From Photorhabdus laumondii subsp. laumondii (GTDB lineage Bacteria > Pseudomonadota > Gammaproteobacteria > Enterobacterales > Enterobacteriaceae), in contig NZ_CP024901.1 in assembly GCF_003343245.1 (NCBI RefSeq), forward strand, positions 5,518,001 through 5,582,000: DNA of 64,000 nt. Reading direction: 5' to 3'. A model generated the notes under the pieces. It searched no databases, was not told the DNA's origin, and worked only from the letters and a program-made list of their open reading frames with translations. The position numbers and the translations under genes were made by a program. Each line of letters begins with the position of its first letter. The first letter of the stretch is position 1. Positions 50,222-63,810 of this stretch are shown in pieces.

Positions 50222-50254
50222 GTTCTGGGAGCCAATAACCTAGTGCGGTAGCTT
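50222..50254 (+). promoter_or_regulatory. JUMPStart/ops-like element upstream of the O-antigen operon
   Basis: GTTCTGGGAGCC...AGTGCGGTAGCTTTG aligns with the JUMPStart consensus with one gap, ending in TGCGGTAGCTT, a close match to the ops hexamer region GGCGGTAGCGT. It lies 175 bp before the first O-antigen gene, in an otherwise empty 401-bp gap (50029-50429). It suggests RfaH-dependent anti-termination. Confidence 0.7.
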
Positions 50255-50429: not shown

Positions 50430-51740
50430 ATGTCCTCACTCAACATTCTCACCGAGAAATTTGATAATAAAACCGCCACCATTGCCATTGTTGGCCTGGG
50501 TTATGTTGGCTTACCGCTCATGCTCAGATATAACGATATTGGTTTTAAAGTGATGGGTTTCGATATCGATAAAGAAAAAACAGATAAACTCAATCAAGGT
50601 CAAAGTTACATTGAACATATTCCCTCCGCCAAAATCAGTCACGCGATAAAGACCGGTTTTGAAGCCACGACGGATTTCACCAACATCGCGCAATGCGATG
50701 CCATTATTCTTTGCGTCCCAACGCCGTTAAATAAATACCGTGAACCTGATATTAGTTTCGTGATTAACACCACCGACAGGGTAAAACCGTATTTAAGGGC
50801 CGGGCAAGTCCTCTCCTTAGAAAGTACAACTTATCCGGGCACCACCGAAGAAGAGTTACTCCCCCGGGTTGAAGAAAGCGGGTTAACCGTCGGTGAAGAT
50901 ATCTTTCTGGTCTATTCACCTGAACGAGAAGACCCGGGTAACCCCGATTTCGAAACCCGCACCATTCCTAAAGTCATAGGCGGCCACACAGAAAACTGCT
51001 TAAAAGCGGGGATCGCCGTTTATCAACACGCGATTGATCAGGTTGTTCCGGTCAGCTCAACCAAAGCGGCAGAGATGACAAAACTGCTGGAGAATATCCA
51101 TCGGGCGGTCAATATCGGCTTAGTCAACGAAATGAAACTGGTTGCCGATAAAATGGGCATTGATATTCACGAAGTGATTAGAGCCGCAGCAACCAAACCT
51201 TTCGGCTTTGTTCCCTATTATCCCGGCCCCGGATTAGGCGGGCACTGTATTCCCATTGATCCTTTCTATTTAACCTGGAAAGCCCGAGAATATGGTATCA
51301 ATACCCGCTTTATTGAACTCTCCGGTGAAGTCAATTCCTCCATGCCCGATTATGTGGTCACTAAAACCGTATTAGCCCTGAACAAAGCGAATAAATCCAT
51401 TAATGGCAGCCACATATTAATCCTCGGCATCGCCTATAAAAAGAATGTGGATGATATGCGAGAAAGCCCCTCAGTACATATTATGGAAAAATTAAGCGAA
51501 TTAGGGGCCAATATTGAATATGCCGATCCGCATGTCCCGGTCTTTCCGAAGATGCGGGAACATCATTTTAATTTAATCAGCCAGCCCATCACGGAAAATA
51601 GTCTCAAAACCTTCGACTGCGTTATTTTAGCCACCGATCACGACAAATTTGATTATGAATTAATTATCAATCACGCCAAATTAGTTGTCGATACTCGTGG
51701 CAAATACTCTCCCAATCACAAAAACATTATCAAAGCTTAA
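50430..51740 (+). CDS. wbpA: UDP-N-acetylglucosamine 6-dehydrogenase (WbpA type)
   Basis: NAD-dependent oxidation of UDP-GlcNAc to UDP-GlcNAcA, opening the diacetamido-uronate pathway. The Rossmann glycine motif is VGLGYVGLP (21-29), the catalytic cysteine C273 lies in [15 protein letters not shown], and the C-terminal domain has [16 protein letters not shown]. The 436-aa size suits WbpA/WecC-like dehydrogenases. Specificity is inferred from the following genes, which form the WbpB-D-E set. Confidence 0.88.
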
Positions 51741-51754
51741 CTTAGGATAAGATT

Positions 51755-52804
51755 ATGCTGAGCACTATCAACGACAGAAAGATAAAATTTGCTTTAGTCG
51801 GTTGTGGACGGATCGCTAAAAATCATTTCAATTCTCTGGAAGTACATCAAGAAGCAGCCGAATTAGTCGCCGTCTGTGATAACGATCAAGAAGCATTAAA
51901 CGCAGCAGTAGAAAAAACCGGCGTCCCGGGTTTCAGCGACTTCAATACAATGTTGGATAACATCACCGCGGATATCATTATCCTGACCACTCCCTCTGGC
52001 CTTCATCCAGCACAGGCGATGACCTGCTTTGATAAAGGCTTTCACGTCGTCACCGAAAAGCCAATGGCAACCCGGCTGGCTGAGGGGGAAAACATGGTCA
52101 AAGCGGCAGATAAAGCCGGAAAACACCTGTTTGTCGTCAAACAAAACCGCTTAAATGCCACCTTACAATTGCTGAAACGGGCGGTCAGTGAAAAACGGTT
52201 TGGCAAAATCCACCTGGTCCACCTGAATGTTTTCTGGACCCGTCCCCAGGCTTATTACGATCAAGCCGCCTGGCGGGGCACCTGGGAATTTGATGGCGGT
52301 GCCTTCATGAATCAGGCGAGCCACTATGTTGATTTAATTGAATGGCTAATCGGCCCGGTCAAAGATGTTCAGGCCATGACATCAACCCACTTAGATATCG
52401 AAACAGAAGATACCGGGGTACTCAATATCCGCTGGCGGGATGGCACATTAGGCTCAATGGCTGTCACCATGTGCACTTATCCGCAAAATCTCGAAGGTTC
52501 CATCACCATCTTGGGGGAAAAAGGCACGGTCAGAGTGGGGGGTTTAGCCGTCAATGAAATCCAGGAATGGCATTTCGCTGACGAAAAAGAGTATGACCAA
52601 CAAGTCAAAACCGCCAATTACGAAACCACTTCTGTTTATGGCTTTGGCCATCCGCTTTATTACAAAAATGTCATTGAGGTGATGAAAGGCGAAGCCCAAC
52701 CCATCACTGATGGCCGGGAAGGCTTAAAATCCTTAGAGCTGCTTATCGCCGCCTACCTGTCAGCCAGAGATAACAAAACCATTTCTTTGCCTTTAACCTA
52801 TTAA
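51755..52804 (+). CDS. wbpB: UDP-GlcNAcA 3-dehydrogenase (WbpB type, Gfo/Idh/MocA family)
   Basis: Oxidises C3 of UDP-GlcNAcA so that WbpE can aminate it. The 349-aa protein begins with a nucleotide-binding fold (FALVGCGRIAKNHF), has the family EKP motif (VVTEKPMATR, near 96) and the active-site segment NQASHYVDLIEWLIG. It follows the dehydrogenase by 14 bp. Family is certain; substrate follows from gene order. Confidence 0.87.
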   Translation: MLSTINDRKIKFALVGCGRIAKNHFNSLEVHQEAAELVAVCDNDQEALNAAVEKTGVPGFSDFNTMLDNITADIIILTTPSGLHPAQAMTCFDKGFHVVTEKPMATRLAEGENMVKAADKAGKHLFVVKQNRLNATLQLLKRAVSEKRFGKIHLVHLNVFWTRPQAYYDQAAWRGTWEFDGGAFMNQASHYVDLIEWLIGPVKDVQAMTSTHLDIETEDTGVLNIRWRDGTLGSMAVTMCTYPQNLEGSITILGEKGTVRVGGLAVNEIQEWHFADEKEYDQQVKTANYETTSVYGFGHPLYYKNVIEVMKGEAQPITDGREGLKSLELLIAAYLSARDNKTISLPLTY

Positions 52805-52822
52805 ATCAATGGAACCGGTCTC

Positions 52823-53410
52823 ATGTCAGCAGAACACATAATGATACATCCCAGTGCCATCGTTGATGAAGGGGCTCAAATCGGCAAAAACAGCCGTATC
52901 TGGCATTTCACCCACGTCTGCTCAGGTGCTCAAATTGGCGAAGGCTGTTCTCTGGGCCAAAATGTCTTTATTGGCAATCAAGTCACTATCGGCAATCACT
53001 GCAAAATACAAAATAATGTTTCTGTTTATGACAATGTTCATCTGGAAGATGGGGTATTTTGTGGCCCAAGCATGGTGTTCACCAATGTTTATAATCCGCG
53101 TTCATTGATTGAAAGAAAAAGTGAATATCAAAACACCTGGGTAAAAAAAGGCGCCACCTTAGGTGCCAACTGTACCATTGTTTGTGGCACCACCATTGGC
53201 GCTTATGCTTTTATTGGTGCCGGCGCGGTGGTGAATAAAGATGTTCCTGATTATGCCCTGATGGTGGGTGTGCCGGCTAAACACATTGGCTGGATGAGTG
53301 AATTTGGTGAACAATTAGATTTACCGCTACACGGACAAGCCACCGCCACCTGTCCTCACACTCAGCATATTTATCAACTCAATAACCATATTGTCGTGCG
53401 AATTAAATAA
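52823..53410 (+). CDS. wbpD: UDP-2-acetamido-3-amino-uronate N-acetyltransferase (WbpD type)
   Basis: Left-handed beta-helix acetyltransferase adding the C3 N-acetyl group. Hexapeptide repeats are plain ([40 protein letters not shown]), and SRIWHFTHV plus FTNVYNPRS are typical of WbpD/WlbB. The frame starts at 52823, but ATG 52841 ([15 protein letters not shown]) is also plausible. It lies between the WbpB- and WbpE-type genes. Confidence 0.88.
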
Positions 53411-53424
53411 TCAAGGATAAAGGC

Positions 53425-54495
53425 ATGCAATTTACCGATCTGGCAGCACAGCAACTTAAAATTAAAGATAAAATTGACGCGAATATCCAGAAAGTCCTCG
53501 CACATGGAAAATATATTTTAGGGCCTGAAGTCGACGAATTAGAAGCAAAGCTGATTGCCTACACCGGCGCGCCATATTGCATTACCTGCGCCAATGGCAC
53601 CGATGCCTTGCAAATTGCCTTAATGGCGATTGGCATTAAACCCGGCGACGAAGTGATTACCGCCGGCTTTACCTACATTGCCACCGCTGAAACCGTTGCG
53701 CTACTGGGCGGGGTTCCAGTTTATGTTGACGTCAAACCCACCACGTATAACTTAGATCCAACGCAACTCGAAGCGGCGATTACCCCAAAAACCAAAGCGA
53801 TCATTCCGGTTTCCTTATTTGGTCAATGTGCCGATTTTGACGAAATTAATGCCATCGCAGCAAAACATAACCTGATCGTAATAGAAGACGCGGCCCAAAG
53901 TTTTGGCGCGACTTATAAAGGCAAACGTTCCTGTAACTTAACGACCATCTCATGTACCAGTTTCTTCCCTAGCAAACCGTTGGGATGTTACGGCGATGGC
54001 GGCGCTATTTTCACCCGTGATGAAGAACTGGCGAAAATTATTCGTCAAATTGCCCGTCATGGACAAGACCGACGATACCACCATATCCGGATCGGAATTA
54101 ATAGCCGCTTAGATACCCTGCAAGCAGCTATCCTGTTACCCAAACTGGAGATATTCGATGAAGAAATGGCATTACGTCAGCAGGTGGCAGAAAACTACAA
54201 TAACGCATTGAACGGCATCGGTATCACGACCACGCCCTATATTGAGCCACACAATCTTTCGGCCTATGCGCAATATACTCTCCGCATTAAAAACCGTGAT
54301 GAATTACAACGCAGATTAAAAGAACAGGGTATTCCCACCGCCATTCATTACCCGATCCCGCTAAATAAACAACCCGCGGTGGCCAGCAATATTGCTCTGC
54401 CTATAGGAGACGAAATCGCACAAGAAGTCATTAGCTTGCCGATGCATCCTTATTTATCCATAGATATAATTAATAAAATTGCCAGTTCAATTTAA
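53425..54495 (+). CDS. wbpE: UDP-2-acetamido-3-keto-uronate aminotransferase (WbpE type)
   Basis: PLP aminotransferase of the DegT/DnrJ/EryC1 family placing an amino group on C3. It starts MQFTDLAAQQLKIKDKID, has the CANGTDALQIALMAIGIKPG segment, an aspartate in VIEDAAQSFG and the PLP lysine in FFPSKPLGCYGDGGA (near 188). With the three preceding genes it yields UDP-GlcNAc3NAcA. Gene order A-B-D-E is that of Pseudomonas wbp and Bordetella wlb clusters. Confidence 0.9.
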   Translation: MQFTDLAAQQLKIKDKIDANIQKVLAHGKYILGPEVDELEAKLIAYTGAPYCITCANGTDALQIALMAIGIKPGDEVITAGFTYIATAETVALLGGVPVYVDVKPTTYNLDPTQLEAAITPKTKAIIPVSLFGQCADFDEINAIAAKHNLIVIEDAAQSFGATYKGKRSCNLTTISCTSFFPSKPLGCYGDGGAIFTRDEELAKIIRQIARHGQDRRYHHIRIGINSRLDTLQAAILLPKLEIFDEEMALRQQVAENYNNALNGIGITTTPYIEPHNLSAYAQYTLRIKNRDELQRRLKEQGIPTAIHYPIPLNKQPAVASNIALPIGDEIAQEVISLPMHPYLSIDIINKIASSI

Positions 54496-54500
54496 AATCC

Positions 54501-55718
54501 ATGAATCATAAATTATTGAGGAATATATCTGGCTTATTACTCTCATCATTATTCAGCCAGATATTATTATTACTATCAACACCCGTATTAACAAGACTAT
54601 TTTCACCGGAAGAATTAGGTATTTACGCTTCATTTTCATCGCTTTTAAGTGTTTTTGCCGTAGGTGCTTGTCTTCGATATGAATTTTCAATAAGTTCATC
54701 AGGGAAAAGTCGTGAAATTAACTCATTAGTCACATTATCTTGCATTATTCCAATAACCATTAGCCTAATCGTTATCACTGTTTTTGCAATATCTAACACA
54801 CCAGAAAAAATAATTATAGGAAACTATATATACTATATCCCGCTAGGTATTATCACTTATGGATTTTATCGAGCAGTGAGTTTCAATAGTATAAGAGAAA
54901 AACAATACCATGCACTCTCTATCACTAAAATAACGCAAACCGTTGCCATGATTAGCACCCAAATCATTGGCGGCATTGCCCATTTAGGCGCAAGCAGTCT
55001 CATCTTAGGCCAAATATTAGGCCAATCATTAGGTGTTCTATTTTTAAGTAAAAGATCCAAATATCGTTTAATTATCAGCAAACATGAACTTAGAAAAATA
55101 AGACTACTGGCTAAGAAATATTATCGATTTCCCGTTTATGATTTTCCTGCGGCTTCAATTAACACATTGAGTAATGAACTGCCCCAATTATTTATCATGT
55201 CCACCTATGGGCTAAAATCGGCAGGATTTTATTTAATTGCATCCAGAATATCAGGAGCCCCAATTACACTATTATCCCAAACCGTTTCATCTATATTACA
55301 AGGATATTTAAAAGACACGCTTATATCACCTTTCTTAAAGATAAAAAAAACATTTTATTGCCTAACACTGATTGCTATTTTATTTGCTATAGTGACATAC
55401 TTCACGGGCATACCCATCATAACCTTTATCTTCGGTGAAGAGTGGCGAGAATCAGGTAAATATCTATTATGCTTAATACCACACTTATGCGGGCAAATAA
55501 TATACTCATCGTTATCGGTATATTTATCAATTTATGAACATCAGAAAAGCAATTTATTTATTCAGACAACATCGATTATATTAAGATTAATCGCCCTCCT
55601 TACTGGATATCTATTAGGCGATATTTACCTTACCCTATTATTATTTTCACTCACAAGTTTTGTTCTCTATATGACAAGTACGGCTTATATTTTAAAATTA
55701 TCTTTCATGCGTCAATAA
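54501..55718 (+). CDS. wzx: O-antigen flippase Wzx
   Basis: A 405-aa membrane protein with about 12 hydrophobic spans and the polysaccharide-flippase N-terminus NISGLLLSSLFSQILLLLST followed by LTRLFSPEELGIYASF. It should move lipid-linked O-units to the periplasmic face. It follows the aminotransferase by 5 bp. Base composition becomes markedly more AT-rich from here on. Confidence 0.9.
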   Translation: MNHKLLRNISGLLLSSLFSQILLLLSTPVLTRLFSPEELGIYASFSSLLSVFAVGACLRYEFSISSSGKSREINSLVTLSCIIPITISLIVITVFAISNTPEKIIIGNYIYYIPLGIITYGFYRAVSFNSIREKQYHALSITKITQTVAMISTQIIGGIAHLGASSLILGQILGQSLGVLFLSKRSKYRLIISKHELRKIRLLAKKYYRFPVYDFPAASINTLSNELPQLFIMSTYGLKSAGFYLIASRISGAPITLLSQTVSSILQGYLKDTLISPFLKIKKTFYCLTLIAILFAIVTYFTGIPIITFIFGEEWRESGKYLLCLIPHLCGQIIYSSLSVYLSIYEHQKSNLFIQTTSIILRLIALLTGYLLGDIYLTLLLFSLTSFVLYMTSTAYILKLSFMRQ

Positions 55719-55725
55719 GGTTAAC

Positions 55726-56832
55726 ATGAAGAAAATCATAATAAAAATAATTCCCTATATCATTATCGTGATGATTGTCAGCTATACATTCAATAAATAT
55801 GCTTATGAGCTAGATGAATTCAATGGCAATGTGAGAAACTTAGTCATGAAAGGGAAATTCACGCAACGCGAATTTAATAGCAATGGCTTTCCTTTATCTC
55901 ACTCACCTCATATTCCAGAGCCATTCTTATCCCCATTTTATGTTGTTCACTATGGCCTGATATACTCTTCTTTAGGCTTAAATCAAGATAACGCCAATAT
56001 ATTATGGCGAACCGATTCATCCTTACCCGGATGGAATGTACCGCCACCTCAATTCAATCAAAACGAATTGATTGCTAATTTTAAATTTTCAGCCGATTGG
56101 TTATTAAATAATATAAAATCATTTCATGGTGAAAGTCATTACTTATATGATTTTGATTGGTCATATAAAGGCTACAAAAATAATAAACTCTCTGCCCCCT
56201 GGTGGTCTGGACTAACCGATGCCTATGCCATTATTCTCTTATTAAGAGCTTATGACCATTTTGACGATGATAAATATCTACTCACGTCGAAACGACTATA
56301 CCAATCATCACTCGCACCTATCCATAAAGGCGGCAGTTTAACAACATTAGATAATATGCCTTGGATTGAAGAGTACGTTGATCCTCAAGCCAATTCAGAC
56401 CAATTGGCTTTTGTATTAAACGGCATGATCTATTCTACTTATGGTATTGAGTCATTTGAAACTTATTTAAATACAGATGAAAACACCAGAATATCCGATA
56501 AATTATATCAATCAATCAGCCATAATATATTTAAGTTCGACATAAAAAATGAATGGTCCAGCTATGATTTAATTGGCAACCCAAGCAATATTAAATATCA
56601 CAAAATACATACTCTTCTTTTAAAAGATCTGATAGCTAGAAATCAAAATTTTAAAAATAAAGAAATAATAGATTTATATAATAATTGGAATAAATCCGCC
56701 GCTAATAGCGGATATTATTACATAAAACATGGCCCTACGAGTTGGGCATACTATCAATTTATCACTATGTATTTCCTGTCTATCTTAGTATTATCATTCA
56801 TTTACTTCTTTATCCGCAAAAATGCAAAATAA
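55726..56832 (+). CDS. Membrane-anchored D-glucuronyl C5-epimerase-domain protein
   Basis: A 368-aa protein with one N-terminal span (about 5-22) and one C-terminal span (about 344-363), placing the large middle domain probably in the periplasm. The domain has the order of motifs seen in heparan/heparosan glucuronyl C5-epimerases: SAPWWSGLTDAYAI (156-169), WIEEYV (213-218), VLNGMIYSTYGIESF (230-244), WSSYDL (277-282) and YHKIH (291-295). It sits between wzx and wzy and overlaps wzy by 11 bp. Inferred role: C5-epimerisation of a uronic acid, perhaps ManNAc3NAcA to its L-gulo form, in the O-antigen. Activity and substrate are not proven. Confidence 0.75.
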   Translation: MKKIIIKIIPYIIIVMIVSYTFNKYAYELDEFNGNVRNLVMKGKFTQREFNSNGFPLSHSPHIPEPFLSPFYVVHYGLIYSSLGLNQDNANILWRTDSSLPGWNVPPPQFNQNELIANFKFSADWLLNNIKSFHGESHYLYDFDWSYKGYKNNKLSAPWWSGLTDAYAIILLLRAYDHFDDDKYLLTSKRLYQSSLAPIHKGGSLTTLDNMPWIEEYVDPQANSDQLAFVLNGMIYSTYGIESFETYLNTDENTRISDKLYQSISHNIFKFDIKNEWSSYDLIGNPSNIKYHKIHTLLLKDLIARNQNFKNKEIIDLYNNWNKSAANSGYYYIKHGPTSWAYYQFITMYFLSILVLSFIYFFIRKNAK

Positions 56833-58051
56833 TATTAAAATAATCCTGAAAATATTTATCTATCAGGTTATTATCTACCTGAATTCAATACTTATATTAG
56901 ATACATTCCATGAGGTAAGAGGCTATAATATTACCCCACAAGGTTACTTAAGTATTATTTTCTGTTGGATATCATTTTTACCACTCATTTTACTCAACAA
57001 CCAAAAAAATCCCGTGATGGTTTTTTTATGGTTAATCTATATCACTTACATTATACCGGTATCAATTATATTCCCACTGATTAATTCAGCTTCTGTCTAT
57101 TCAATCATTTTCGTCTGCACAATAAACATATTATTTTTCTCATCTATATTATTCTTTCGGATAATAGATAGAATAACAATACCGAAACTAAAAATCCCGT
57201 GGGATTTATATAAAATACTGATAATAGGATGTGGTATTATTGTCCTCTTATTCGTCATTAGCAATCCTGGATTAAGTTTAATACCCCCTAATATATTTAA
57301 AGTTTATTCCGTGAGACAGCACTTTAAAGACAACACACCGCTACTCACGATGTACATCATCACCAATGGGGGATATGTTATCTCGCCATTGCTATTACTA
57401 GCTTCACTCTATATTAGAGGTCCGATAAAATATCTGCTCATTACAATAAGTATTTTGATTTCCTATTTAATCTACAGCTCCTCAGGATTAAAAAGCATCG
57501 CATTCATGAATCTCGCGGTTATCATTCTATACTTCTATATAAAAGGAACAAAATCGATAAGTAACTCGGTGATAAATATCATCCTCTATTTATTCCTGAC
57601 CGCCGGGATATTATATTTAATTTTCGATTTTTATGACCCACTGATCCATTGGCTACGCAGAGTATTCTTCACACCGACATTAAATACCTATTATTTTTAT
57701 GATTATATCTACAACAACAATAGTGAATTTACGACAGAAGCGCCGCAAATAGTTTCTCAAATCTATTATGGCACCTCAGGTTCGGCTAATACTGGCTTTA
57801 TTGGAGACGGTATCGCCAGATACGGTACACTGGGTTTAATAATAAACTTTTTTATATTTAATATATTAATCTTTGCAATGAACCTGAGCTCAAAAAAGGT
57901 TCCATTTGAACTTTCAACGACACTCTATTTACCCTTCGTATACACAATATCAAACTCAGCGATTACAGCACTACTACTGACCTATGGGCTGCTGGCATTA
58001 AGCATATTATTATTTTTATTCCCAACGAAAACTAACAAAATACCCTTATGA
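56822..58051 (+). CDS. wzy: O-antigen polymerase Wzy
   Basis: A 409-aa protein with about ten to eleven spans and a large periplasmic loop in the second half (about 280-330, with TEAPQIVSQIYYGTSGSANT then GFIGDGIARYG), the usual layout of Wzy. Sequence is poorly conserved in this family, so the call rests on topology and position after wzx. It overlaps both neighbours by a few bases. Confidence 0.8.
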   Translation: MQNNIKIILKIFIYQVIIYLNSILILDTFHEVRGYNITPQGYLSIIFCWISFLPLILLNNQKNPVMVFLWLIYITYIIPVSIIFPLINSASVYSIIFVCTINILFFSSILFFRIIDRITIPKLKIPWDLYKILIIGCGIIVLLFVISNPGLSLIPPNIFKVYSVRQHFKDNTPLLTMYIITNGGYVISPLLLLASLYIRGPIKYLLITISILISYLIYSSSGLKSIAFMNLAVIILYFYIKGTKSISNSVINIILYLFLTAGILYLIFDFYDPLIHWLRRVFFTPTLNTYYFYDYIYNNNSEFTTEAPQIVSQIYYGTSGSANTGFIGDGIARYGTLGLIINFFIFNILIFAMNLSSKKVPFELSTTLYLPFVYTISNSAITALLLTYGLLALSILLFLFPTKTNKIPL

Positions 58052-59151
58052 AAATCACACATATGACCTCGGTACATCCACGTTTCGACACCCGTATTTT
58101 CCTAAAAGAATGTTCTGCCTTACAAAAAGAACATGAGGTCTCACTTATTGTTGCAGATGGTAAAGGTAATGAAGTCAAGAATAACATTGCTATCATTGAT
58201 GTCGGTATATTGCCCGGTCGATTAAATAGAATTTTTAAAACAACCGATAAAGTTTATAAAAAAGCATTAGAATTAGACGCCGACTTATATCATTTTCATG
58301 ATCCAGAACTCATCCCTATCGGGCTAAAACTGAAAAGGAAAGGTAAAATAGTCATTTTTGATTCCCATGAAGATGTCCCTAAACAAATTTTTAGCAAACC
58401 TTACTTAAATAAATTTACCCGGGTTATTATCTCTAAACTATTCGCCCTCTACGAGAAGTATTCTACACCTAAATTTGATGGCATTATTACAGCCACACCC
58501 TCAATAAGAGACAAATTCTTAAAACTCAATAACAACACCATAGATATTAATAACTATCCTATATTAGGTGAGTTGCATAATAAACATGCCAACTGGCATG
58601 AAAAAGAAAAACAAGTCTGCTATGTCGGCGGTATTTCCGACATTAGAGGTATAGCCGAAATGGTTGAGTCCCTCTCTCACCTCACAACAAATACAACAAT
58701 GAAACTCGCGGGCAATTTTTCAGATACAGAACTCGAGAACAAAATAAAAAATATGAAAAATTGGCACAAAATAGATGCACTGGGATTTTTAAATCGCATA
58801 GAAACCAAAGAGCTTTTATCTAAATCTATTGCAGGTATTGTTCTATATCACCCACTTCCCAATCATATCGATGCCCAACCCAATAAAATATTCGAATATA
58901 TGAGTGCGGGTATCCCGGTCATCGCTTCAAATTTCACATTATGGAAAGATATAGTTGTAAAAAACCATTGTGGCATTTGTGTTGACCCATTAAACCCTAA
59001 GCAAATAGCTGATGCAATAGATTACCTATCAAATAACCCTGATATAGCAGAAGAAATGGGTAACAATGGGCTTCTGGCAGTCAATGAAAAATACAATTGG
59101 GATATTGAACAAAATAAACTAACCAAATTTTATCAACACATTGGACGTTAA
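58048..59151 (+). CDS. Glycosyltransferase, family 4
   Basis: A 367-aa cytoplasmic GT-B enzyme. The N-terminal domain starts MKITHMTSVHPRFDTRIFLK and contains HFHDPELIPIG and DSHEDVPKQ. The C-terminal domain has the E-x7-E donor motif region NKIFEYMSAGIPVIASNF. It is coupled to wzy (ATGA) and precedes wbpI by 5 bp. The sugar transferred is unknown; it may be the N-acetylated uronate made by the cluster. Confidence 0.85.
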   Translation: MKITHMTSVHPRFDTRIFLKECSALQKEHEVSLIVADGKGNEVKNNIAIIDVGILPGRLNRIFKTTDKVYKKALELDADLYHFHDPELIPIGLKLKRKGKIVIFDSHEDVPKQIFSKPYLNKFTRVIISKLFALYEKYSTPKFDGIITATPSIRDKFLKLNNNTIDINNYPILGELHNKHANWHEKEKQVCYVGGISDIRGIAEMVESLSHLTTNTTMKLAGNFSDTELENKIKNMKNWHKIDALGFLNRIETKELLSKSIAGIVLYHPLPNHIDAQPNKIFEYMSAGIPVIASNFTLWKDIVVKNHCGICVDPLNPKQIADAIDYLSNNPDIAEEMGNNGLLAVNEKYNWDIEQNKLTKFYQHIGR

Positions 59152-59156
59152 TCGAT

Positions 59157-60227
59157 ATGAAAAAAATCATCACCGTATTAGGTGCCAGACCACAATTCAT
59201 TAAAGCAAGCCCAGTCTCTCGCGCTTTAAAAAATAATAACAAATTTAAAGAAATTATCATTCATACCGGTCAACATTTTGATACTAATATGTCTGATGTC
59301 TTCTTCAATGATTTAGCCATTCCCAAACCGGATTACACACTCAATATTCACGGTGGTTCACACGGTGACATGACAGGTAGAATGCTCATCGAAATTGAAA
59401 AAGTACTCATCACAGAAAAACCGGATGCCGTCATGGTATATGGCGACACAAACTCGACTTTAGCTGGTGCATTAGCCGCATCTAAATTACATATTCCGAT
59501 TATCCATGTTGAAGCCGGTTTACGTAGCTTTAATATGCAGATGCCAGAAGAGATAAACAGAATATTAACCGATAATGTGAGTTCAATTCTTTTCTGTCCA
59601 ACAGACACTGCCATCAATAACCTACAAAAAGAAGGCTTCGGTTCAAAGCCCGTTAATATCAAACAAGTCGGTGATGTGATGGAAGACGCCGCTTTATATT
59701 TTAGCCAAATGGCGAAAAAACCTGATGGGCTGGATGCGATACCAAACTTTATATTAACCACGCTCCATCGTGCTGAAAATACCGATAATCAGGAACGTCT
59801 AACTGAAATAGTAAACGCCTTAAATAATATACATAAAAGAACTGCTATTGTTGTTATGCCAATTCACCCAAGAACTAAAAAAATGTTAGCACAATACGAC
59901 TTACATTTAGATGTTCATTTAATTGAGCCAGTAGGATATTTAGAGATGATCTGGCTACTCAAAAACACCGCCCTGATTATTACCGATAGCGGTGGACTGC
60001 AAAAAGAGGCTTTTTTCTTCAAGAAACCTTGTGTGACTGTGAGGGATCAAACTGAATGGGTAGAATTAATTGCCGCGGGCGTAAACAAACTCTCGGAGGC
60101 TGACAGTAACAAAATAACCCAAGCCGTTCATGACATGATTGGAATTGACATGGACTCGATTCAATCCATGTATGGTGGTGGTATCGCTGCGACAAGAATT
60201 GCTGACGAACTAGAAAAATCACTATGA
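59157..60227 (+). CDS. wbpI: UDP-GlcNAc3NAcA 2-epimerase (WbpI type, non-hydrolysing)
   Basis: Inverts C2 of UDP-2,3-diacetamido-glucuronate to give UDP-ManNAc3NAcA. It has the non-hydrolysing 2-epimerase signatures VLGARPQFIKASPVSRAL, HTGQHFD, VYGDTNSTLAGALAA, HVEAGLRSFNMQMPEEINR and SGGLQKEAFF. The choice of WbpI over WecB is based on the co-encoded WbpA/B/D/E set. Confidence 0.87.
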   Translation: MKKIITVLGARPQFIKASPVSRALKNNNKFKEIIIHTGQHFDTNMSDVFFNDLAIPKPDYTLNIHGGSHGDMTGRMLIEIEKVLITEKPDAVMVYGDTNSTLAGALAASKLHIPIIHVEAGLRSFNMQMPEEINRILTDNVSSILFCPTDTAINNLQKEGFGSKPVNIKQVGDVMEDAALYFSQMAKKPDGLDAIPNFILTTLHRAENTDNQERLTEIVNALNNIHKRTAIVVMPIHPRTKKMLAQYDLHLDVHLIEPVGYLEMIWLLKNTALIITDSGGLQKEAFFFKKPCVTVRDQTEWVELIAAGVNKLSEADSNKITQAVHDMIGIDMDSIQSMYGGGIAATRIADELEKSL

Positions 60228-61462
60228 ATATCGTCTATATAAACCACTATGCCGGCTCACCGGATCTTGGGATGGAATTTCGTCCATATCATTTAGGACA
60301 AGAATGGATTAAATCGGGACATAATATTACCCTACTTGCAGCCTCTTATTCTCATGTACGGACCAAACAACCCAAACTGATAGAGAATAAAAAAACCACC
60401 GAAAATATTAACGGATTAGAATATATCTGGTATCCAACCCCGAGTTATAATGGAAATGGATTATCCAGAGTCAAAAATATTTTCTCTTTTTTACGGCAAA
60501 TTTGGCTTGATAGCCATAACTTAGTCAAAAAATATCGACCTGATGTTGTTATTGCTTCAAGTACATATCCAATGGATATCTGGATTGCCAAACGTCTTGC
60601 CAAAAAAGCCAATGCCAAACTGGTTTTTGAACTGCATGATTTATGGCCGCTTTCACCCATAGAATTAGGTGGAATGTCACCTAAACATCCATTTATTCAA
60701 TTATGCCAACTTGCTGAAAACACAGCTTATAAACATGCTGATGTGGTTATTTCCATGCTTCCTAAAGTACAAGAACATACGAAAGCACATGGATTAGATC
60801 TCAATAAACTACATATTATCCCTAATGGCGTGGTTATAAAGGATTGGATAAATCAACTTACTCCATTAAACCGTTCACTAGAAAAACTTATTATAACTGA
60901 AAAAAATAAAGGGCATAAAATTGTATGCTATAGCGGTGCCCATGGCCGCCCAAATGCGCTAGAAAAACTACTCAAAACGGCTTCACTGCTTCATGATAAA
61001 CCGATAACCTTCTTATTAGTCGGCACGGGCCTTGAAAAAGATAACTTAATAAAGGAGTCTCAATCACTGAGAACAAATAACGTTATATTCTTTGATCCGA
61101 TCCCCAAAACTCAAATCCCAACACTACTCAATAAAATTGACATTGCCTATATAGGGTTACAAAAGCAATCATTATTCAGATTTGGCATCAGCCCCAATAA
61201 ACTCATTGATTACATGATGGCGGGCAAACCCATTTTATGTGCGATTGATGCCGGTAATGATCCTGTTTCTGACGTGAATTGCGGTATCACCGTTAAATCA
61301 GGCAAGCCAGAAGAGATTGCTCGGGCCTTATTAAAACTCAGTGAATTATCAACTGACGAATTAAACCAAATGGGGAAAAAAGGTAAAATTTACGCTTTAG
61401 AAAATCACGCTTATTCCGTATTAGCAGACAATTTCATCAAGGCCATCATCAATCATGAATAA
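60224..61462 (+). CDS. Glycosyltransferase, family 4 (WbuB-like)
   Basis: A 412-aa GT-B enzyme of the WbuB/WbpH type: MNIVYINHYAGSPDLGMEFR, the conserved FELHDLWPLSP and IIPNGV in the N-terminal half, and the donor-site FGISPNKLIDYMMAGKPIL in the C-terminal half. It overlaps wbpI by 4 bp. It probably adds an amino sugar or uronate to the O-unit. Its 3' end overlaps the start of a duplicated aminotransferase fragment. Confidence 0.85.
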   Translation: MNIVYINHYAGSPDLGMEFRPYHLGQEWIKSGHNITLLAASYSHVRTKQPKLIENKKTTENINGLEYIWYPTPSYNGNGLSRVKNIFSFLRQIWLDSHNLVKKYRPDVVIASSTYPMDIWIAKRLAKKANAKLVFELHDLWPLSPIELGGMSPKHPFIQLCQLAENTAYKHADVVISMLPKVQEHTKAHGLDLNKLHIIPNGVVIKDWINQLTPLNRSLEKLIITEKNKGHKIVCYSGAHGRPNALEKLLKTASLLHDKPITFLLVGTGLEKDNLIKESQSLRTNNVIFFDPIPKTQIPTLLNKIDIAYIGLQKQSLFRFGISPNKLIDYMMAGKPILCAIDAGNDPVSDVNCGITVKSGKPEEIARALLKLSELSTDELNQMGKKGKIYALENHAYSVLADNFIKAIINHE

Positions 61463-61574
61463 TAAATTCCTTCCTTTTGCATTACCTGAAATTGGACAAT
61501 CCGAAATTGATGAAATCATTGACTTACTTAAAACAGTGATGGATAACCACCCGACCTAAAACCAGAAGATTTAA
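61455..61574 (+). pseudogene. Duplicated 5' fragment of the DegT aminotransferase gene
   Basis: The 34-codon frame MNNKFLPFALPEIGQSEIDE...LLKTVMDNHPT and the following bases match the first 120 bp of the intact gene at 62653 with several changes and small indels. Its ATG overlaps the preceding glycosyltransferase stop. It marks the ancestral start position of the aminotransferase before the 1.1-kb glycosyltransferase segment was inserted. Confidence 0.9.
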
Positions 61575-61631
61575 ATAAAACATAGGAATTAATAACTATC
61601 ATTACACTCTAAATAAAGTGACTATTCAACC

Positions 61632-62642
61632 ATGATAAATATATCAGTTATTTGCCCTATATTAAATGAAGAAAAATATATAAAAGGGTGTATTGAATCA
61701 CTGCTAAAACAAGATTACCCTACCGGGCAATTAGAGATTATTTTTATAGATGGTTGTAGTTCAGATAGTACTTTAAAAGTAATTCAGAGTTATACTGAAA
61801 AATATGAGTTCATAAAATTACTATATAACCCTGCAAAACATGTTCCTACTGCTCTGAATATTGGTATAAAAAACTCATTAGGGGAATATATAGCCAGAAT
61901 CGATGCTCACTCCAGCTATCCCAGTAGCTACTTATCCAAACTATATAACTTATCAAAAAAACTTGATGCTGATAATATAGGTGGGATTGTTAATACAAAA
62001 CCATGTAATTCTACAACCATTTCCCACAATATTGCATATGCCTTAAGTAGTCGCTTTGGAATGGGTAATTCCTATTTTCGAATTGGCATTAATAATATAA
62101 AAAAAGTTGATACAGTACCTTTCGGCTTTTTCAAAAGAACACTATTCGATAAAATAGGGCTATTTGATGAAGATTTAATTAGAAACCAAGATGATGAGTT
62201 TAACAACAGAATTATAAAGCATGGAGGTAATATATACCTTTCCCCAGATATTATTATTGATTATTACCCCAGAGATTCAATTAAAAAAATCTGTTCTATG
62301 TTCTACCAATACGGTTTATTTAAACCATTAGTCAATGCCAAATTGAAAAAAATAACATCATTCTGGCAATTAATACCACCAATTTTTGTCTTAGGGTTAA
62401 TCCTAGGATTAATCCTCTCATTCACTAGCTCAATATTTTTATATCTATATATAGGTTGTATTTTTATCTATTTCTTCTTAACTTTACTGGTATCAATAAG
62501 AGCCCATTTAAAAAATAAAAAAAACTATATTTTCTTACCATTAATATTTCTGTACATACATTTATCTTATGGATCAGGGTATCTCATTGGAATAATGAAA
62601 ATTATATTCAATAAGAAATTCCACGTAAAAAACAAAAGATAA
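61632..62642 (+). CDS. Glycosyltransferase, family 2 (ExoA-like)
   Basis: A 336-aa protein with a GT-A domain (ISVICPILNEEKYIKGCIES, LEIIFIDGCSSDST, IARIDAHSSYP as the DxD-like site) and two to three C-terminal spans (about 252-330) anchoring it to the inner membrane. The sequence is very AT-rich. It lies between a duplicated piece of the aminotransferase gene and the intact copy, showing later insertion into the cluster. Confidence 0.88.
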   Translation: MINISVICPILNEEKYIKGCIESLLKQDYPTGQLEIIFIDGCSSDSTLKVIQSYTEKYEFIKLLYNPAKHVPTALNIGIKNSLGEYIARIDAHSSYPSSYLSKLYNLSKKLDADNIGGIVNTKPCNSTTISHNIAYALSSRFGMGNSYFRIGINNIKKVDTVPFGFFKRTLFDKIGLFDEDLIRNQDDEFNNRIIKHGGNIYLSPDIIIDYYPRDSIKKICSMFYQYGLFKPLVNAKLKKITSFWQLIPPIFVLGLILGLILSFTSSIFLYLYIGCIFIYFFLTLLVSIRAHLKNKKNYIFLPLIFLYIHLSYGSGYLIGIMKIIFNKKFHVKNKR

Positions 62643-62652
62643 GGATTATATC

Positions 62653-63810
62653 ATGAACTCTTCTTTTCTCCCTTTCGCACTCCCAGAAATCAGCCAAGAA
62701 GAAATTGATGAAGTCATTGACTCACTTAAAACAGGCTGGATAACCACCGGACCTAAAACCAGAAGATTTGAACAAGATTTTGCGCAATATTTAGGTTCCG
62801 ATGTTGAAGCCATAGCGGTAAATTCAGCCACGGCAGGGTTGCATTTAGCATTAGAAGCCATTGGTATTCAGCCGGGTGATGAAGTCATCGTTCCGACCTA
62901 TACCTTTACGGCAACCGCAGAAGTTGTCCGTTATTTGGGAGCTCACCCTATTTTTGTTGATTCTTTACCTGACAGCCTGAATATTGACCCAATAGCAATA
63001 GAAAAAGCCATAACCGCCAAAACTAAAGCAATTATGCCGGTACACTTTGCAGGTTTATCCTGTGATATGGATGCCATTATTGCAATAGCTAAAAAATTCA
63101 ATCTACGAATCATTGAAGATGCCGCCCATTCATTTCCGACTTTATATAAGGGAAAGAAAATTGGCACGCTAGATACCGATGTCACCGTATTCAGCTTTTA
63201 CGCGAATAAAACCATGACGACAGCGGAAGGTGGCATGCTAGTCTCCAGACATCCAGATATCATAAAAAGAGCAAAAATAATGCGCCTCCACGGCATTAGC
63301 AAAGACGCCTTTGATCGATATCAATCTAAAATACCTGCCTGGTATTATGAAGTGATTGAACCAGGCTATAAATATAACATGCCCGATATTTGTGCATCTA
63401 TCGGCATCCATCAATTACAGAAAATAGACACTTTCCACAAGAAAAGAGAGGCAATGGCTAAACTCTATGATGATGAATTAAAAGATCTACCGATTATCTT
63501 ACCCACTAAACCTCAAGAATCTAATAGCCAACACGCCTGGCATCTATATACCATTAGATTAAATGATCAAGTCAAAATATCCAGAGATGACTTTATTATA
63601 AAAATGGCAGAAAAAAATATCGGCTGCTCTGTCCATTTTATTCCACTACACAAACAACCCATCTGGAAAAATACCTATTCTCTTAACGAAAACAACTTCC
63701 CAGTCGCAGAAGAAAACTTTAAAAGAATTGTATCCATCCCTTTATATACAAAAATGACCAAAGAAGACCAAATATACGTTATCAAAACAATTAAAGAGAT
63801 CTTGGCATAA
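62653..63810 (+). CDS. DegT/DnrJ/EryC1 nucleotide-sugar aminotransferase
   Basis: A 385-aa PLP enzyme: VNSATAGLHLALEAIGIQPG, VIVPTYTFTATAEVVRYLGA, IIEDAAHSF and the PLP lysine in FYANKTMTTAEGGM (near 187). It resembles the PglE/VioA type that aminates C4 of UDP-4-keto-6-deoxy sugars. Being directly followed by a PglC-like initiating transferase, it may make UDP-bacillosamine or a similar first sugar, but the dehydratase and acetyltransferase would lie beyond the window. Confidence 0.85.
   Translation: MNSSFLPFALPEISQEEIDEVIDSLKTGWITTGPKTRRFEQDFAQYLGSDVEAIAVNSATAGLHLALEAIGIQPGDEVIVPTYTFTATAEVVRYLGAHPIFVDSLPDSLNIDPIAIEKAITAKTKAIMPVHFAGLSCDMDAIIAIAKKFNLRIIEDAAHSFPTLYKGKKIGTLDTDVTVFSFYANKTMTTAEGGMLVSRHPDIIKRAKIMRLHGISKDAFDRYQSKIPAWYYEVIEPGYKYNMPDICASIGIHQLQKIDTFHKKREAMAKLYDDELKDLPIILPTKPQESNSQHAWHLYTIRLNDQVKISRDDFIIKMAEKNIGCSVHFIPLHKQPIWKNTYSLNENNFPVAEENFKRIVSIPLYTKMTKEDQIYVIKTIKEILA

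Follow-up and report, generated by a model that had tools for sequence, protein, structure and literature searches.

Inversion at C5 of a uronate that is already part of a chain is reported to be rare, the cases given being alginate, the heparan and dermatan sulfates and a single archaeal glycan (PMC13308652). RED65_08024 of Bermanella marisrubri is reported as a glucuronyl C5-epimerase active on desulfated heparan-type chains (PMC4432689, PMC13308652), with a natural polymer stated to be unknown (PMC4432689). For the polysaccharide VPS, its authors proposed that an L-gulo amino-uronate arises from the D-manno form through C5 inversion (PMC3901696), by an epimerase that a review describes as unknown (PMC4432689). 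Here, we analyze a gene of Photorhabdus laumondii subsp. laumondii that encodes an epimerase of the animal heparan-sulfate type (GLCE) with a predicted membrane span at each end (55726..56832, forward strand, as are all features below). It lies in a 64,000-nucleotide stretch of contig NZ_CP024901.1, referred to here as the window, whose coordinates are used throughout unless a locus is named.

We judge it slightly better than an even bet that this protein is the periplasm-facing epimerase of a Wzx/Wzy operon, where it would convert diacetamido-mannuronate (ManNAc3NAcA) to L-GulNAc3NAcA in a polysaccharide common to the whole genus.

The epimerase and its predicted topology

The 368-residue protein matches PF06662 (8.5e-52) with a score of 175.8 bits, against a curated cut-off of 23.3; the C5-epim_C domain spans residues 137–323 (56134..56694). 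Comparison of a predicted structural model with solved structures reveals the GLCE fold. Alignment places the catalytic pair E216/Y217 (56371..56376) on human E499/Y500, and Asn232 (56419..56421), Tyr280 (56563..56565) and Tyr291 (56596..56598) on human Asn510, Tyr560 and Tyr578, respectively. These five residues are invariant in all 43 rows of an alignment of epimerase relatives. An earlier note on this DNA, made from its letters, had proposed a GLCE-type domain and named structure prediction and the catalytic tyrosines as places to check it; the proposal is upheld by the predicted fold and by the retention of the tyrosines with the rest of the catalytic set. By profile, model and alignment the protein is thus a GLCE family member with its catalytic residues kept and with predicted epimerase activity. 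The name D-glucuronyl C5-epimerase is already in database use for the family, and one relative is entered as WblE.

A membrane span at each end is seen both as a helix in the model and by hydropathy, at residues 2–24 (55729..55797; hydropathy 2.32) and 340–367 (56743..56826; hydropathy 2.35). In a hydropathy scan, the N-terminal span recurs in 39 and the C-terminal span in 41 of the 43 rows, and the flanks outside them are net-positive in 39 rows on the N side and 40 on the C side. Applied to these flanks, the positive-inside rule predicts a periplasmic catalytic domain that is anchored in the inner membrane at both ends, in line with the earlier note.

The sugar pathway and the operon slot

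The epimerase gene belongs to a run of co-directional genes (50430–63810) with gaps of <20 nt save one of 169 nt. It follows a wzx flippase gene (54501..55718; PF13440, 3.9e-18) and precedes a wzy-like gene (56822..58051), whose start overlaps its end by 11 nt. The wzy-like product has nine transmembrane-like segments and no Pfam family above cut-off, and is called a polymerase from topology and position. Upstream of wzx lie genes for a WbpA-like nucleotide-sugar dehydrogenase for C6 oxidation of UDP-GlcNAc (50430..51740; TIGR03026, 454 bits), a WbpB/WlbA-like 3-dehydrogenase (51755..52804; 7.5e-166 to 3q2i, entered as 'dehydrogenase', which we take to be WlbA), a WbpD/WlbB-like N-acetyltransferase (52823..53410; 1.2e-97 to 3mqg, 'lipopolysaccharides biosynthesis acetyltransferase', presumably WlbB) and a WbpE/WlbC-like aminotransferase (53425..54495; 3.7e-172 to WbpE, 3nu7). 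The nearest solved structures to the WbpA-like protein are Cap5O and UDP-ManNAcA dehydrogenase, and the models do not discriminate between its candidate substrates.

Downstream of the wzy-like gene come glycosyltransferase A8 (58048..59151; PF00534/PF13439), a WbpI-like 2-epimerase, A9 (59157..60227), glycosyltransferase A10 (60224..61462; PF00534/PF13579), which is conserved in Photorhabdus and in the compared loci outside it, an optional glycosyltransferase, A11 (61632..62642; PF00535), and a DegT-type aminotransferase (62653..63810) that probably serves the amino sugar starting the unit. Past the window end come genes for a phosphoglycosyltransferase (PF02397) and a dehydratase resembling WbpM; the combination of these two with the DegT aminotransferase suggests a first sugar of bacillosamine or FucNAc4N type. 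The cluster therefore unites flippase, putative polymerase, initiating transferase and glycosyltransferases, as a Wzx/Wzy-dependent operon does, and a scan of its genes gave no sign of another uronate gene set. The genome has one place of Wza type and three of Wzz type, all outside the cluster. A 21-nt block ending in GCGGTAGC (50232..50252), 177 nt upstream of the first cluster gene, resembles a JUMPstart/ops (RfaH) element. It is identical in all 13 Photorhabdus sequences compared (the window and 12 loci), its surroundings have 85% invariant columns vs 50% across the whole aligned intergenic stretch, and genome-wide its extended pattern is found a single time.

A9 matches the UDP-GlcNAc3NAcA 2-epimerase 8sxv at 6.5e-115, vs 2.3e-45 for the E. 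coli-type enzyme 1f6d. Trp307, Ala18 and Tyr96 are described as setting the UDP-GlcNAc3NAcA enzyme apart from 2-epimerases acting on UDP-GlcNAc, in which an Arg is conserved (PMC10622841). The corresponding A9 residues are Trp301, Ala17 and Tyr95, and the Arg is absent. With WbpA-, B-, D-, E- and I-type enzymes all encoded in the cluster, both the UDP-ManNAc3NAcA pathway and the location between wzx and a wzy-like gene claimed in the earlier note are borne out, the former by homology to wbp/wlb enzymes and the A9 residues.

Inspection of other bacteria (lineages given by locus number) shows that this arrangement recurs. The order Wzx-like, GLCE, polytopic Wzy-like is found in seven of the eight lineages readable on both sides (Photorhabdus, L015, L016, L017, L018, L052 and L053); the eighth, L051, has neither flank. 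Among the flanking proteins, the upstream one of L053 and the downstream ones of L018 and L052 were called by topology only. The contig of L014 begins at the epimerase gene, and its downstream side fits the slot. A WbpI-type gene lies nearby in seven of nine lineages (Photorhabdus, L014–L017, L052 and L053); the contig of L018 ends too early, and L051 has none. The six of these 2-epimerases from outside Photorhabdus all have the diagnostic Trp and Ala; at the third position, five have Tyr and one (L017) has Phe. A8 adjoins the 2-epimerase gene in Photorhabdus, L014–L017 and L052, and a PglD-type acetyltransferase is additionally present in L014, L017, L052 and L053. The lineage counts are exclusive of L019 and L020 (short contigs; 27–28% identity over 40–44%) and of weak PF06662 matches in genomes G314, G357, G418 and G442. 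In L016, a Hydrogenothermus metagenome-assembled genome, the gene for the wbpA-like UDP-sugar dehydrogenase (L016:650–3340) contains an intein with a LAGLIDADG domain.

The epimerases of L052 and L053 are 24% identical to the window epimerase across 40–54% of its length and keep all five catalytic residues. Despite this divergence they lie in clusters like that of the window, so at least two GLCE lineages, far apart in sequence, share the operon slot and the sugar pathway. This recurrence in unrelated bacteria ties the epimerase to the sugar and strengthens its placement between flippase and polymerase. Whether these loci amount to a scattered, unrecognised bacterial system, with at least two lineages in the slot, in which a GLCE enzyme encoded between flippase and polymerase genes inverts diacetamido-mannuronate in the periplasm, we regard as evenly balanced.

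The gene order suggests the following route. UDP-ManNAc3NAcA would be made in the cytoplasm by the WbpA/B/E/D/I-like enzymes, as homology and specificity residues indicate. From the gene content, the phosphoglycosyltransferase would start a lipid-linked unit with the bacillosamine- or FucNAc4N-type sugar, and two or three glycosyltransferases would add the rest before Wzx flips the unit. The Tyr/Glu pair of the epimerase would then remove and re-add the C5 proton of ManNAc3NAcA, giving L-GulNAc3NAcA on the lipid-linked unit or on the nascent chain, and Wzy would polymerise the product. We infer the substrate, the product and the timing relative to Wzy.

A genus-wide cluster beside a variable one

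The earlier note had placed the epimerase in an O-antigen cluster and linked it to strain-specific surface variation; this part of its proposal is not supported. The gene is present in all 12 Photorhabdus species genomes, its own included, each with E <1e-146, and its ratio of nonsynonymous to synonymous substitution (dN/dS), compared for six of these 12 loci, is 0.09–0.13, indicating purifying selection. The other cluster genes are 62–99% identical across the 12 loci with the exception of A11, a GT2-type gene present in seven and absent from five, which may vary a side branch on an otherwise constant polymer. A10 is only 62–63% identical, with a synonymous divergence (dS) of 2.2–2.8, in L010–L012, where the other cluster genes are at 82–93%; the sequences suggest replacement of the gene in those species.

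The variable element is a second cluster (L026) just past the window, ∼14–31 kb downstream of the epimerase gene. It carries HddA-, GmhA-, HddC- and GmhB-like genes of GDP-D,D-heptose type, of which only GmhB scores above its NCBIfam cut-off. A gene for a DegT aminotransferase and one resembling formyltransferase genes accompany them. Its Wzx has a full match in its own genome only; the other 11 genomes give 28–31% matches, presumably to the WzxE that serves a different pathway, and in one genome a 36% match is also present. HddA is likewise fully matched only in its own genome, with a 79-residue piece at 72% in G572 and short matches of 35–38% in the rest. The formyltransferase-like protein (L026:16312–17484) has a C-terminal part that resembles ankyrin-repeat proteins, and an ORF at L026:3435–4496 reads as transposase-like. 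The title of a paper reportedly gives D-glycero-D-manno-heptose together with 3-formamido-3,6-dideoxyglucose as sugars of the laumondii O-chain; such a pair would match this second cluster.

The genes plu4796–plu4811 are reported as a stretch common to P. luminescens TT01 and a second Photorhabdus, beside genes that vary (PMC2717986); the window cluster would probably fall within this stretch. The structure of a Photorhabdus O-antigen was stated not to be known in 2010 (PMC2907834). The window cluster does not vary between strains or species as a serotype-specific O-antigen locus does. Because it is kept genus-wide and its neighbour is the variable one, it probably makes a second, genus-core polysaccharide that is separate from the serotype O-antigen. 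Strain-specific O-antigen variation by way of the epimerase is rejected on the 12 of 12 presence, the purifying selection and the variable neighbour.

Distribution, rival explanations and known systems

The association between epimerase and sugar pathway was assessed in one even set of 369 gammaproteobacterial genomes. A9 has a match at 1e-80 in 16, of which 12 (own genome included) have the diagnostic Trp and four an Arg; PF06662 has a match at 1e-3 in eight, six of them above cut-off and four strong. Three of the four strong genomes are among the 12 of Trp type (Fisher p 1.0e-4), as are two of three with our own genome removed (p 2.4e-3). If the whole set of 16 A9 genomes is taken, the p values are 2.6e-4, 4.6e-3 with the own genome removed and 0.029 with all weak matches. 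Profile A1 matches four of the 369 genomes of the class, PF06662 is found in the family only in the two Photorhabdus among 198 genomes, and one of 398 genomes of the phylum, the epimerase's own, has a match at 1e-20.

Several observations weigh against a ManNAc3NAcA epimerase of the periplasm. The p values above serve as guides, since there is relatedness among the genomes and both the 'strong' class and the Trp filter were set after the hits had been seen; with all weak and strong PF06662 genomes under the Trp filter and the own genome removed, two of seven are of Trp type (p 0.016). PF06662 is absent from nine of the 12 Trp-type genomes, which makes the epimerase an add-on to some ManNAc3NAcA polymers and not a constant partner. 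In four of the nine (L061–L064, 20 kb each), four GLCE queries gave no match at 1e-3, and one or two of the cluster glycosyltransferases are kept. L051 (genome G217) is a PF06662 lineage with no such sugar cluster in its 20 kb; in its C5-epim_C protein (L051:9523–10359), Lys and Phe take the place of the catalytic Glu/Tyr pair. Neither span is predicted in the L053 epimerase, which would suit a cytoplasmic site there, and that of L052 has the N-terminal span only, so the double anchor is a trait of the window epimerase's branch and not of every relative. The one characterised bacterial GLCE named in the passages of PMC4432689 and PMC13308652, that of Bermanella, acts on glucuronic acid (GlcA). 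Finally, A9 exceeds the cut-off of the NCBIfam wecB model (TIGR00236; 337.8 vs 210.15), a score that, taken by itself, would make it a UDP-GlcNAc 2-epimerase. The model does not separate UDP-GlcNAc from UDP-GlcNAc3NAcA 2-epimerases, and the 8sxv match and the diagnostic residues disfavor a WecB-type (ManNAc) reading.

The most serious rival, a real but minority possibility, is that the window cluster makes the O-antigen or part of it, with the neighbouring cluster modifying or extending it. The Wzx and Wzy-like genes, the upstream element, of a kind typical of O-antigen and capsule operons, and the Wza- and Wzz-type genes outside the cluster are consistent with this; the sugars in the O-chain title mentioned above fit the other cluster. 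The epimerase gene is moreover genus-core, while adjacent-cluster genes are not common between species, by the Wzx and HddA matches above and by report (PMC2717986). A little less probable is inversion of another uronate of the repeat, such as GlcA or GlcNAc3NAcA, to an L-ido sugar. The described GLCE enzymes use GlcA (PMC13308652, PMC4432689), and the same pathway ends with a step that acts on UDP-GlcNAc3NAcA (PMC10622841), but a 2-epimerase with the diagnostic Trp and Ala accompanies the gene in seven of nine lineages, so that a manno residue is expected, and the scanned cluster genes offer no second uronate set.

The site and the chemistry could also differ. Action on a lipid-linked oligosaccharide that has yet to be flipped, either within the cytoplasm or at the inner face, has a precedent in archaeal Agl32, which works on a lipid-linked glycan before its delivery across the membrane (PMC13308652), and in the spanless L053 homologue; we consider it unlikely, given the positive outer ends and the near-universal spans of the window epimerase's relatives and the lack of GLCE catalytic residues in Agl32 (PMC13308652). 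Least probable of all is that the helical barrel here carries a lyase or hydrolase activity, trimming or editing the polymer as it grows; this barrel is also found in GH8 and GH76 enzymes and in unsaturated glucuronyl hydrolases.

A phage or plasmid origin of the gene was considered and rejected: plasmids gave no match, 16 phage records matched weakly (23–27% over 45–63% of the query), and none of 44 pattern-matching stretches in viral contigs encodes an epimerase relative. Fifteen of the matching records are of P. aeruginosa phages. In one, vB_Pae_CF57a, a 560-residue C5-epim_C protein (L021:8737–10419) with Met aligned at Tyr500 is encoded beside tail genes, after a tail protein with a pectate-lyase-like domain; a Bradyrhizobium phage encodes one of 361 residues (L022:5626–6711), also beside tail genes. 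Such proteins may serve to attack or modify sugars on the host surface. The L051 gene lies near an inverse autotransporter gene, with no window-cluster genes in its 20 kb.

For the ManNAc3NAcA epimerase that we favor, the family name and the Bermanella enzyme were known before; the operon slot, the diacetamido-mannuronate link and the genus-core status are new. Literature searches, which would miss spellings such as 'C-5 epimerase', found nothing joining Photorhabdus with a C5-epimerase or with wbl genes or a wbl cluster, and nothing joining a C5-epimerase with Wzy; the Photorhabdus protein may already have been listed as a putative epimerase. We know of no GLCE enzyme that uses a 2,3-diamino uronate and of no uronate C5 inversion placed in a Wzx/Wzy pathway, and the protein, if the assignment is correct, would be the first of each. 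The animal heparan-sulfate enzyme family would then include a bacterial branch that is tied to an operon and to a different sugar, Photorhabdus species would share a conserved acidic polysaccharide beside a variable O-antigen, and the gene, in a genetically accessible genus, would make the VPS-type inversion question testable.

The vertebrate enzymes (6hzz, 4pw2) share the fold, the five catalytic residues and a membrane tether with the window epimerase, at 22–24% identity over the aligned part, and have their polymer substrate outside the cytosol. The window protein is much shorter (368 residues), has an additional C-terminal span and sits in a diacetamido-mannuronate/Wzx/Wzy operon, whereas vertebrate GLCE belongs to a GlcA-GlcNAc system; in place of such a heparosan-type system, the window cluster encodes UDP-ManNAc3NAcA-type genes and an amino-sugar initiating system. 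AlgG and AlgE of the alginate system have an unrelated fold, the right-handed beta-helix. They perform an analogous D-manno to L-gulo inversion at the polymer level, in the periplasm or outside (PMC4432689). Agl32 is a C5-epimerase of a lipid-linked oligosaccharide that, unlike the window epimerase, lacks the GLCE residues and acts before export (PMC13308652), and RED65_08024 is, by its description, a bacterial GLCE-like C5-epimerase as the window protein is (PMC4432689). The Wbp/Wlb pathways of Pseudomonas, Bordetella, Chromobacterium and Thermus use the same kinds of nucleotide-sugar enzymes as the window cluster; the passages of PMC10622841 on them mention no GLCE-type gene, whereas the window cluster has one between wzx and the wzy-like gene. 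A membrane-anchored GLCE relative in such an operon suggests that an insect-killing bacterium inverts an acidic sugar after its export, much as in alginate and heparan sulfate.
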